Assembly (NCBI RefSeq): GCF_008727775.1
Contig: NZ_CP044232.1
Span: 434,001 to 498,000 of the forward strand
DNA from: Microbacterium lushaniae
GTDB taxonomy: Bacteria > Actinomycetota > Actinomycetes > Actinomycetales > Microbacteriaceae
Direction of reading: 5' to 3'
DNA: 64,000 nucleotides
The notes below the pieces were generated by a model. That model worked only from the letters and a program-made list of their open reading frames with translations, did no database searches and had not been told where the DNA came from. Shown in pieces: positions 34,635 to 37,105 of this stretch. The translations under genes were made by a program, and so were the position numbers. Within the stretch, counting starts at the first letter, position 1. Each line of letters opens with the position of its first letter.

Positions 34635-36239
34635 TCACGCCTGGACGAGGCCTCCCGCCGTGAGCTCGAGGGTCAGGTCGGGAGCGAGCCGGCCGAGGAA
34701 CGCGTCGTCGTGGCTGACGATGAGCACCGCCCCGCGATAGGCGGCGAGCGCCCCCAGCAACCGGTCGACCGTGTCCAGGTCGAGGTTGTTGGTGGGCTCG
34801 TCCAGCACGAGCAGCTGCGGCGGCGGGTCGGCCAGGAGGATGCGGGCGAGTGCGACGCGGAAGCGCTCGCCGCCGGAGAGGGTGACGACCTGCCGCTGCA
34901 CCGCATCGCCGCGCAGGAGGAAGCGCGCGAGCCGGTTCCGCAGCTCCACGACGGGCAGCGCGGGCGCCGCCGACCGCACGTTCTCCAGCACCGTCGCCGC
35001 CTCCTCGAGCCCGTCGACCCCCTGCGGCAGGTACCCCACGCGGTCGGTGAACAACTCCGCCCGCACCGCCCCGGTGCCGGCGTCCGACCCGGGGGCGGCG
35101 GAGCGCACGAGACGCTCCAGGAGCGTCGTCTTGCCGATGCCGTTCGGGCCGATCAGTGCGACGCGCTCGGGGCCCTGCACGACCCACGAGCGCTCGGCGT
35201 CGCCGATGCTCAGGATGCGCCGCCCCGCCGCGACGCCGGGATCGGGGAGGTCGATGCGCACGGCCTGGTCCTCGCGCACCCGGCGCTCGGCCGCATCCAG
35301 GGCGGCGCGGGCCTCGTTCTCCTTCTCCCGCACCTCGGTGCGCAGGCGCCCCGCCGACACCTCCGCGGCGCGCTTGCGGTTGCCCGAGACGATGCCGGGG
35401 ACGCGCTTTTCCACCTGTGCCTTGTGGCCCATCTGGGCGCGGCTGGACAGCGTGCGCTCGGCCGCGATCCGGTCGCGCTTCTCGCGCCGCACGACCTGCG
35501 CGGCGGTGCGCTCGGCCTGGCGGGCCGCATCCTGCTCGGCGTCGAGCCATGCCCGCCACTGCGAGTACGGCCCGCCGAAGGTCGACAGCGCGTTCGCGTA
35601 CAGCTCGGCGGTGTCGTCCATGAGCTCGAGGAGGGCGACATCGTGGCTCACGACCACGAGGGCCCCGCGCCACGATCGCACCATCTCGGCGACGCGGGCG
35701 CGGGCATCGCGGTCGAGGTTGTTGGTGGGTTCGTCCAGCAGCGTGATGGGGGCGGCGGCCAGGCGGATGCCGGCGATGGCGACGAGGATCGCCTCTCCGC
35801 CCGAGAGCGAACCGATGGTGCGATCCAGCGCAGTGGGCGGCAGCCCCGCATCGGCCAGCGCGGCGGCCGATCGCGCCTCGACGTCCCAGTCGTCGCCGAC
35901 CGCGTCGAAGTGCTGCGGGTCGGCGTCGCCGGATTCGATCGCCCGCAGCGCCGACAGCGCGTCGGCGACGCCGAGCAGCTCGGCGACGGGCCGGTCGACG
36001 TCGAGAGTCAGCCGCTGCGGCAGATACGCGACGTCCCCCGAGCGGATGACGTGCCCAGAGGTGGGGGCGAGCTCGCCGGCGGCGAGGCGCAGCAGCGTCG
36101 ATTTGCCCGAGCCGTTGCGGCCGACCAGCCCCGTGCGGCCGGAGCCGAACGAGCCGGAGACGCCGTCGAGGGCGATCGTGCCGTCGGCCCACACGAGCGA
36201 GACGGAGTCGAACAGGAGAGCAGAGGAAGGGGTGGGCAT
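34635..36239 (-). CDS. ABC-F family ATPase (ribosome-protection type)
   Basis: Cytoplasmic protein of 534 residues with two ABC ATPase domains and no TM segment. Domain 1 has Walker A GRNGSGKS (residues 40-47), signature LSGGE and LLDEPTNNLD; an Arg/Lys/Gln-rich linker (about residues 235-330, the P-site-tRNA-interaction region) follows; domain 2 has GPNGIGKT, LSGGERFRVALARILL and LVLDEPTNNLDLDT. ABC-F proteins bind the ribosomal E site; many dislodge antibiotics. The upstream promoter, 18-codon ORF and hairpins suggest induction by ribosome stalling, as in known resistance genes. A housekeeping translation role is the alternative. Confidence 0.92.
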   Translation of the reverse strand: MPTPSSALLFDSVSLVWADGTIALDGVSGSFGSGRTGLVGRNGSGKSTLLRLAAGELAPTSGHVIRSGDVAYLPQRLTLDVDRPVAELLGVADALSALRAIESGDADPQHFDAVGDDWDVEARSAAALADAGLPPTALDRTIGSLSGGEAILVAIAGIRLAAAPITLLDEPTNNLDRDARARVAEMVRSWRGALVVVSHDVALLELMDDTAELYANALSTFGGPYSQWRAWLDAEQDAARQAERTAAQVVRREKRDRIAAERTLSSRAQMGHKAQVEKRVPGIVSGNRKRAAEVSAGRLRTEVREKENEARAALDAAERRVREDQAVRIDLPDPGVAAGRRILSIGDAERSWVVQGPERVALIGPNGIGKTTLLERLVRSAAPGSDAGTGAVRAELFTDRVGYLPQGVDGLEEAATVLENVRSAAPALPVVELRNRLARFLLRGDAVQRQVVTLSGGERFRVALARILLADPPPQLLVLDEPTNNLDLDTVDRLLGALAAYRGAVLIVSHDDAFLGRLAPDLTLELTAGGLVQA

Positions 36240-36245
36240 GATGCT

Positions 36246-36297
36246 CCGGTGTGTGCATGCGCTGACACCGGACCCCTGCCCTCAGACGGGCGGGTCC
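36246..36297 (-). promoter_or_regulatory. Putative attenuator hairpins before the ABC-F gene
   Basis: On the minus strand two hairpins overlap by 2 bases: GGACCC...GGGTCC (36297-36270, with an inner CCC/GGG extension) and CCGGTGT...ACACCGG (36271-36246). The 3' arm of the second contains CCGG of the CCGGAG ribosome-binding site located 4 bases before the ABC-F ATG. Only one of the two can form fully, the layout expected of a translation or transcription attenuator. Confidence 0.6.
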
Positions 36298-36321
36298 ACC
36301 GAGCTACGGCGGGTCGACGGT

Positions 36322-36378
36322 TCAGCGCGCGGACAGGGGCGCGGAAGCGACGTCGATCTTCACCGGAGGGATCCTCAC
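36322..36378 (-). CDS. Leader peptide upstream of the ABC-F gene
   Basis: Short reading frame of 18 codons (GTG start, TGA stop): MRIPPVKIDVASAPLSAR. It begins about 14 bases after the predicted transcription start and ends 25 bases before the first hairpin of the ABC-F leader. A ribosome stalled on it could change which hairpin forms. No clear ribosome-binding site precedes it, which fits a near-leaderless start. Translation is inferred, not shown. Confidence 0.55.
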   Translation of the reverse strand: MRIPPVKIDVASAPLSAR

Positions 36379-36398
36379 ACTCGGAACAGGACTCGGCC

Positions 36399-36427
36399 AC
36401 CGTAGTGGGGGCCGTGCGAACGTGCAA
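36399..36427 (-). promoter_or_regulatory. Promoter of the ABC-F transcript
   Basis: On the minus strand TTGCAC (36427-36422) and TACGGT (36404-36399) are separated by exactly 17 bp. Initiation near 36392 would give a leader of about 150 bases before the ABC-F ATG. Confidence 0.65.
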
Positions 36428-36445
36428 CCCGTGCCCGTGCCCGCC

Positions 36446-37105
36446 TCAGCTCGCGGCCGGTTTTTCCAGGCGCTTGCTGAGGAAGGCGTGCACGTCGGCG
36501 AGCTCCGCCTGCGAGACGCTGTGCGCCATGCCGGGGTACACGCGGCCGCTCAGGTCGGAGTGCGCGGGGAGCCACTCGACGGTGTGCGCCACCAGTGCCT
36601 CGGGGATGACGTCGTCGTGGGTGCCGCGTCCCCAGAACACCGGCGGCTTCTGCTCGGTCAGCGTCGCATCCCCCGGAAGGGATCCGGGCGCGACGTATCC
36701 GGACAGGTTCACCACGAAGGCGATGCGCGAAGGATCCAGCCGCAGGGCCTGGAGCGCGACGGACGCGCCCTGCGAGAACCCCAGCAGGCCGATGCTCGGG
36801 GCATCGACGGCGGCATCCAGCCACTCCAGCAGGCCATCGGCTGCCGCCGTCACCGCCGACGGATCGCGTCCGTTCAGTCCCTCGATGGGGTACCACGAGT
36901 ACCCCGGCGACGGCCACGGCGGCGCGAGCGGCGCGCGGACGGCGGCGTAGGCGAACGCGTCGGGGAGGTGCTCGGACAGGGCCAGCAGGTCGCGCTCGTC
37001 GGCGCCGTACCCGTGCAGCAGGATCAGCGCCGGCCGACCGGCGCGCTCCTGGGGCGGGGTGGCCCAGACGACCAGGTCGGGGTCGATGCGCGGCGGCTCG
37101 CTCAT
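36446..37105 (-). CDS. Alpha/beta-hydrolase, phospholipase/carboxylesterase family
   Basis: Cytoplasmic esterase of 219 residues. The fold markers are the oxyanion-hole segment ILLHGYGADERDL (residues 28-40), nucleophile Ser111 in GFSQGAS, Asp164 or Asp165 in GTHDDVIP and His195 in GMAHSVS. The family hydrolyses short-chain carboxylic esters. GAGGAT ends 6 bases before the ATG, and GAAGG directly upstream could serve as a ribosome-binding site. It is divergent from the Nudix-like gene with an 88-bp gap. Natural substrate unknown. Confidence 0.9.
   Translation of the reverse strand: MSEPPRIDPDLVVWATPPQERAGRPALILLHGYGADERDLLALSEHLPDAFAYAAVRAPLAPPWPSPGYSWYPIEGLNGRDPSAVTAAADGLLEWLDAAVDAPSIGLLGFSQGASVALQALRLDPSRIAFVVNLSGYVAPGSLPGDATLTEQKPPVFWGRGTHDDVIPEALVAHTVEWLPAHSDLSGRVYPGMAHSVSQAELADVHAFLSKRLEKPAAS

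Follow-up and report, generated by a model that had tools for sequence, protein, structure and literature searches.

A probable ribosome-position RNA switch ahead of a chromosomal ABC-F gene in Microbacterium

Organization of the ABC-F leader

The stretch of DNA analysed here, referred to as the window, comprises 64,000 nucleotides of Microbacterium lushaniae (contig NZ_CP044232.1, positions 434,001 to 498,000), whose genome amounts to 3.65 Mb in one contig. The minus strand of the window carries an ABC-F ATPase gene preceded by a leader with a short upstream open reading frame (uORF) and several complementary arms, here named s1 to s5. Positions are those of the window and the pairings listed are proposed ones.

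36422..36427, minus strand: -35-like hexamer TTGCAC, from direct reading; weak across relatives
36399..36404, minus strand: -10 hexamer TACGGT; a TANNNT box in relatives
36372..36376, minus strand: uORF Shine-Dalgarno sequence GAGGA, 8 nt upstream of GTG 36363
36322..36363, minus strand: probable uORF MKIDVASAPLSAR, 13 codons plus TGA, from parsed relatives and alignment
36351..36356, minus strand: arm s1, TCGACG, within uORF codons 3-5; partner s3
36339..36343, minus strand: inner arm CGCGC; partner GCGCG (36330-36326), thereby masking s2
36318..36328, minus strand: arm s2, GCGCTGAACCG, the uORF end, its stop and 4 nt more; partner s4
36314..36319, minus strand: arm s3, CGTCGA, directly 3' of the uORF stop; partner s1
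36259..36270, minus strand: arm s4, CGGTGTCAGCGC, used both in s2:s4 (ON) and in the s4:s5 hairpin (OFF)
36245..36272, minus strand: OFF hairpin s4:s5, TCCGGTGT:ACACCGGA, over the ABC-F ribosome-binding site (z -3.71; swap test p 4.7e-08)
36244..36247, minus strand: ABC-F Shine-Dalgarno sequence GGAG, upstream of ATG 36239
34635..36239, minus strand: ABC-F ATPase gene (534 aa), putative target of the switch; NF000355 and two ABC_tran stretches

The best NCBIfam match of the encoded protein is NF000355 (ribo_prot_ABC_F) at 293 bits, which lies under the cut-off of 380. Among solved structures the protein best matches YheS (158.7 bits), then PoxtA (146.4 bits) and then EttA. The gene is chromosomal, and its product probably belongs to those ABC-F proteins that release ribosomes from drugs; because the top structural match is YheS and not a resistance protein, this protective role is itself putative. 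Of 198 Microbacterium genomes covered by a protein search, 169 gave an ABC-F match with an E value of at most 1e-60.

The initial annotation had described a consensus-like promoter at the head of the leader. The two hexamers are present (TTGCAC at 36427-36422 and TACGGT at 36404-36399, separated by 17 nt), but the description was generous, as they agree with the sigma-70 consensus at 6 of 12 positions and a strict consensus scan called no promoter in the leader region of the window. A scan for terminator-like sites (a GC hairpin followed by a T-run) found none in 35900-36800, a scan which high-GC or Rho-dependent terminators escape. The hairpin over the ABC-F Shine-Dalgarno sequence is significantly stable relative to shuffled sequences (z -3.71, with none of 200 shuffles as stable), and the whole leader (z -0.90) and the uORF hairpin (z 0.18) are not. 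Folding alone is therefore insufficient to dismiss a chance ORF with chance hairpins for the latter two; that explanation is ruled out by the comparison of relatives described below.

At gathering score, no Rfam family matched the window or any of eight related leaders, and the best score for the leader and its opposite strand was 13.8 bits against a threshold of 37.2. The leader is unique in its own genome, scoring 64.1 bits with model R1 where the next match reaches 18.1 bits; this single strong match rules out a second copy of the element.

The uORF and its occurrence in relatives

The initial annotation had placed an 18-codon ORF in the leader. Its frame (GTG to TGA, 36378-36322) exists, but the GTG at 36378 overlaps the Shine-Dalgarno region GAGGA and the first five codons are unconserved in an alignment of related leaders (A1, described below). 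Because these codons are unconserved and the Shine-Dalgarno sequence sits there, the start is most likely GTG 36363; the true uORF probably begins 15 nt downstream of the original assignment and has 13 codons.

Conservation of a small ORF across related genomes was borne out. It occurs in 143 of 147 stretches upstream of the ABC-F gene, nearly all from Microbacterium and with some genomes represented twice (for example L018/L144, L088/L146 and L131/L195). A parsing script that considered only TTG, GTG and ATG starts recovered 129 uORFs and missed 18 stretches, and 14 further uORFs were recognized by eye. The four stretches without a uORF are L101, which lies 66 nt from a contig end, and L123, L127 and L130, which precede 54-58% identical paralogues. 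A DNA search of 58 genomes gave 13 matches, all in the same genus and including the window itself (L005 and L041 are the same place). Twelve of the 13 precede this ABC-F gene; the exception is L009, from genome G024, in which the protein search found no ABC-F match.

Among the 129 parsed uORFs the start codon is TTG in 87, GTG in 37 and ATG in 5. All 129 have a TANNNT box 38-43 nt upstream of the uORF start, compared with 223 of 2580 letter-shuffled windows, which argues that the leader is not a product of chance. The best -35 hexamer begins with TTG in 45 of the 129, a lower bound since, in the window leader, the script chose GTTGCA at 18 nt.

The uORF comes in three forms. Type A (34 of 129) ends in R-stop. 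Type B (50 of 129) mostly has a shorter end (MKLIDATAL-stop and similar), with stop codons that interchange between TAA (26) and TGA (24). Type C (45 of 129, and also 2 of the 14 by-eye leaders) is reduced to two codons, TTG ATC TGA, giving MI-stop. A maximum likelihood tree built from 81 ABC-F proteins places its 11 type C members in a single clade (support 100/100) within the longer-form group. In MI-stop leaders such as L008, L012 and L013, the motif GACACGCCC(GGG) also occurs 5' of the uORF, frequently as two directly repeated copies close to the -35 and -10 positions. At least one copy is found in 43 of 45 MI-stop leaders (at least two in 24) compared with 1 of 84 others, and this motif may be a clade-specific regulator site.

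Other ABC-F genes have leaders of different makeup. Four loci with paralogous ABC-F genes (L151, L153, L268 and L272) have short ORFs reading MELIEVDIRA, MEIEVDRN, MEIEVDRL or MELIEVPDN before the stop, each directly followed by a G+C-rich hairpin. In L127 the sequence ATGAGGATCTGA, read as MRI-stop, precedes the 58%-identical ABC-F paralogue; the peptide is the same as that of the cplR uORF of C. difficile. At L280 the uORF encodes MTGTPAA-stop, and its GGGTACTCC exactly complements GGAGTACCC at the ABC-F ribosome site; by this complementarity L280 is a simpler, direct form of putative masking.

Conservation of RNA rather than peptide

The initial annotation had put forward a synonymous substitution bias as a mark of the small ORF. 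No such sign of peptide selection was detected. In 54 close pairs of longer uORFs we counted 28 synonymous and 59 nonsynonymous changes, a synonymous share of 0.32 where 0.24 is expected, and the changes are spread evenly over the three codon positions (30/29/28). On these counts peptide conservation was rejected as the driver. In type C leaders the nucleotides that code for DASA elsewhere lie past the stop codon and are still retained, so that the RNA arms persist beyond a two-codon ORF. In L236, from another genus of the family, the arms (read by eye) are retained although the ORF frame is shifted. From the MI-stop leaders, L236 and the close-pair substitutions taken together, it is the RNA rather than the peptide that is conserved beyond about codon 2.

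Three competing pairings

Three pairings are well supported by the comparison of leader sequences as the elements of a switch: s1:s3 and s4:s5 in an OFF state and s2:s4 in an ON state. The initial annotation had recognized two hairpins that share two bases, the second covering the ABC-F ribosome-binding site. The latter point holds, as the hairpin arms (36272-36265 with 36252-36245) cover three bases of the GGAG tetranucleotide. The overlap also holds for this hairpin and the core of s2:s4 (36266-36259), rising to six bases in the extended form (36270-36259), but the leader contains more arms than two hairpins can account for. In the window s2:s4 amounts to 11 bp with one bulge, and s1 lies 3 nt closer to the start codon than in aligned relatives.

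A swap test, which requires no choice of alignment columns, compared each arm's own partner with partners swapped in from other leaders, using 63 representatives of 130 leaders. The own partner was better than the swapped mean in 44 of 63 cases for s1:s3 (p 3.7e-05), 49 of 63 for s2:s4 (p 1.7e-05) and 51 of 63 for s4:s5 (p 4.7e-08). It was not better for the control pairings s1:s5, s3:s5 and s3:s4 (p 0.11-0.25). We also considered a pairing between the transcript 5' end (s0, CCTGTCC) and the ABC-F Shine-Dalgarno sequence, which looked good in single folds; it was rejected, with own partners at -13.13 and swapped partners at -13.47 in 50 leaders (p 0.35).

Compensatory changes in the stems were found in s1:s3, the inner stem and s2:s4, but type B leaders (alignment A2) showed no convincing column covariation. 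Alignment A1, built from 57 non-identical type A and type C leaders, has 87.7% paired cells compared with 83.7% after shuffling and a covariation of 0.136 compared with 0.072, values that none of 500 shuffles reached; two of the five measures (pairs changed on both sides and further pair types) were not above the shuffles. In 14 leaders a U-A pair of s1:s3 has become A-U, and in 8 the pair that closes the loop of the inner stem has gone from C-G to U-A; of the two outer s1:s3 pairs, one is unpaired in 31 and the other in 25 of the 57. The alignment misplaces the inner stem in L047, L064, L068, L128 and L134, which were counted as broken. A contiguous s1:s3 stretch of at least 5 bp is present in 126 of 129 leaders and absent in L044, L133 and L155; L044 is close to the window by uORF sequence. 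For s2:s4, position 5 is T-A in 78 leaders, C-G in 4, T-G in 3 and unpaired in 32 (n=117), and position 8 is C-G in 86 and T-A in 6. These figures count sequences, not independent events, with positions 1-4 largely fixed by the search pattern and 12 of 129 leaders left out since their s2 or s4 falls outside it. Some type B leaders, such as L037 and L124, contain a second module resembling s1 and s3 between the uORF and s4 (TCGACG...CGTCGA repeated), which suggests a longer chain of alternative hairpins.

In L239, s2 GCACTGAC stands with s4 GTCAGTGC, the third pair being compensated. Similar arms recur outside the genus: L196 (Ancrocorticia) and L150 (a Propionibacterium MAG) have partly different arm sequences in the same pairing order. 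Arms resembling s2 and s4 appear again in families f8, f9 and f15. With the family-wide model R2, matches reaching 34.6 bits occur away from any ABC-F gene and were taken as background. Checking by tblastn the R2 matches given a locus (30 loci, L230-L259), we found ABC-F beside ten of them (L230-L233, L235, L236, L239, L249, L254 and L256) and a weak ABC match at L238. Homologues from Streptomyces and other genera that bear MLV or GDDDISG frames are 42-49% identical to the ABC-F protein of the window. The nine Streptomyces homologues retrieved here (46-49% identity) carry TTG CTC GTC TGA (MLV-stop). Exact patterns locate all four arms in the order s1-s2-s3-s4 in six of the nine, s1 lying 10 nt past the first base. 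GDDDISG frames precede 42-46% identical homologues at seven loci (L178, L183, L184, L185, L191, L193 and L222), which belong to Micromonospora, Paractinoplanes, Pseudonocardia and Streptomyces.

Predicted effect of a ribosome at the uORF start

Folding with a ribosome-sized block was performed on 115 of 117 leaders. When the block on the uORF start extends to +16, the predicted mean probability of s2:s4 rises from 0.01 to 0.26 and that of s4:s5 falls from 0.57 to 0.46; a block to +25 takes them to 0.56 and 0.21. In type C leaders the same two blocks move s2:s4 from 0.01 to 0.47 and 0.87. A gain in s2:s4 above 0.1 (block to +22) is predicted in 76 of 115 leaders: 40 of 41 in type C, 18 of 31 in type A and 18 of 43 in type B. 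When the block was moved along 39 of the 115 leaders (11-39 per position, fewer where it overlapped s2 or s4), the effect on s2:s4 peaked at the uORF start, at 0.29-0.55, and was at most 0.18 elsewhere. In 100 of 129 leaders the best s1 stretch begins between +10 and +12, the region where a ribosome on the start codon ends, so that s1 would lie under such a ribosome; in the window it begins at +8. For vmlR, PMC9226507 reports a 30S toeprint located 16 nt past the start codon.

In these predictions the ABC-F ribosome site opens only in part. Engaging the whole s4 arm raises the openness of the Shine-Dalgarno sequence from 0.29 to 0.40, compared with 0.32 for a control mask of equal length; in the 115 leaders openness rises in 75, rises by at least 0.1 in 60 and falls by at least 0.1 in 15. 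The window itself goes from 0.15 to 0.51. A wide ribosome footprint increases openness from 0.21 to 0.30 (up in 88 of 115), and a short one leaves the site shut (0.18 to 0.19). Masking the 8-nt s4 core alone gives 0.35, below two controls (0.40 and 0.41). The window leader prefers s2:s4 even without a ribosome (probability 0.51), a value above 0.3 being reached in just 2 of 115 leaders. In RNA that does not yet include s4, masking of s2 barely exceeds that seen with shuffled flanks (unpaired 0.28 compared with 0.32).

Proposed mechanism and alternative explanations

The initial annotation had seen in this region the layout of drug-inducible attenuation, and a uORF-controlled attenuator is well supported by the comparison of leaders. 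Its idea of a ribosome-sensing leader stands with a changed detail: the sensor would be a ribosome stopped within the first two codons rather than the sequence of the leader peptide. We consider it probable that the element is a ribosome-position RNA switch before the chromosomal ABC-F gene. The uORF, the promoter box and the three pairings, with their conservation, are read from the compared sequences, and the change of pairing is predicted by folding. Judging from the position of the -10 box, transcription would start about 27-29 nt upstream of the uORF. Without drug, s1 would pair with s3, the inner stem would mask s2, and s4 would fold with s5 and hide the ABC-F ribosome-binding site. A ribosome that a drug holds at the first uORF codons would cover s1 (about +10 to +16; +8 to +13 in the window), leaving s2 free for s4, so that s4:s5 would open and ABC-F would be translated. 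Control would thus act mainly at translation, and by analogy with known leaders the trigger drugs would be lincosamides, streptogramin A and pleuromutilins.

Nascent-peptide stalling occurs in Erm leaders, and phenicol and oxazolidinone stalling occurs after alanine. A stall inside the uORF directed by an xIDASA or DATA nascent chain together with a context-dependent drug is accordingly conceivable, and a DA[ST]A stretch does recur in many of the longer uORFs. We nevertheless judge it improbable, as the MI-stop leaders keep the same nucleotides past their stop codon, L236 keeps its arms despite the shifted frame, and the close pairs show the synonymous share and even codon positions given above. 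The greater conservation of the RNA arms than of the peptide would also suit a leader with no ribosome sensor at all, such as a ligand riboswitch or a structure setting a constant translation level. This explanation is very improbable given that an ATG, GTG or TTG uORF is kept even at two codons, that the stops of type B uORFs swap between TAA (26) and TGA (24), and that Rfam yielded no match at gathering score.

A more serious, though still unlikely, alternative retains the same sensor but couples it to premature transcription termination, through Rho or a terminator without a U-tract, as in the are5sc leader. In its favor, the Streptomyces homologues of 46-49% identity share the order s1-s2-s3-s4, and PMC12421871 reports that are5sc is controlled at transcription. 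Against it, the scan of 35900-36800 found no terminator-like site, blind as that scan is to high-GC and Rho-dependent terminators, and the s4:s5 hairpin sits on the ribosome-binding site and not ahead of a T-run. Control at transcription would share the sensor of the ribosome-position switch, and the two explanations overlap.

On a wider scale, we give roughly even chances to a single ancestral switch across the ABC-F genes of Actinomycetota, in which arms in the order s1-s2-s3-s4, with s1 under the start-codon ribosome, read ribosome position and not peptide, the ORF varies from 2 to about 14 codons and the arms are rewritten by paired changes. The arms would then have been partly rewritten in other Microbacteriaceae, Ancrocorticia, the Propionibacterium MAG and the family of Isoptericola, and wholly rewritten in Streptomyces. 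The two-codon-ORF clade, with its RNA arms kept, amounts to a natural experiment that separates ribosome position from peptide sequence, and about 140 natural variants are available for testing the sensing of start-codon-stalling drugs. Provided that the ABC-F protein does have its putative protective role, many Microbacterium species would have inducible protection that is invisible in a gene list alone.

Comparison with known systems

In inducible erm leaders such as ermC, one strand of a hairpin is occluded by the ribosome and a competing pairing frees the ribosome site of the gene, as proposed here for Microbacterium. The difference is that the peptide directs the stall there, whereas the MI-stop form has no codons past the second.

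This kind of switch is already known, and the Microbacterium element is an unreported variant within the literature searched: titles and the beginnings of abstracts gave no account of this leader or of its two-codon form, and the ARE5 uORF list of PMC12421871 (Data S4) may hold some examples. Among Firmicutes, PMC9226507 and PMC10201436 describe very short MI, MK or MR uORFs before ABC-F genes, namely vmlR (MIN), vmlR2 (MK[L/Q]) and cplR (MR[I/M]), of which vmlR and cplR are reported to be attenuated at translation. These two are also reported to rely on a transcription terminator, whereas the scan of 35900-36800 found none at the window leader.

The closest known systems are the are5sc and tiaA leaders of Streptomyces coelicolor, and it is from this likeness that the same drug trigger is proposed for Microbacterium. 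According to PMC12421871, ribosomes are arrested by lincosamides, tiamulin and pristinamycin IIA where the uORFs of are5sc (MLV) and tiaA begin; are5sc acts at transcription and tiaA seemingly at translation. The are5sc leader, which belongs to an ARE5 protein (PMC12421871), resembles ours in its short TTG-started uORF before an ABC-F gene. It differs in the reported level of control, as the last hairpin of the Microbacterium leader covers the ribosome-binding site of the gene, and the arms of this Streptomyces type (GAGGTC:GACCTC and GAGACACC:GGTGTCTC) are unlike those of Microbacterium. The tiaA leader shares a uORF (MVGDDDISG), start-codon stalling by the same drugs and a reported, seemingly translational mode of action (PMC12421871), with a peptide unlike that of the Microbacterium uORF.
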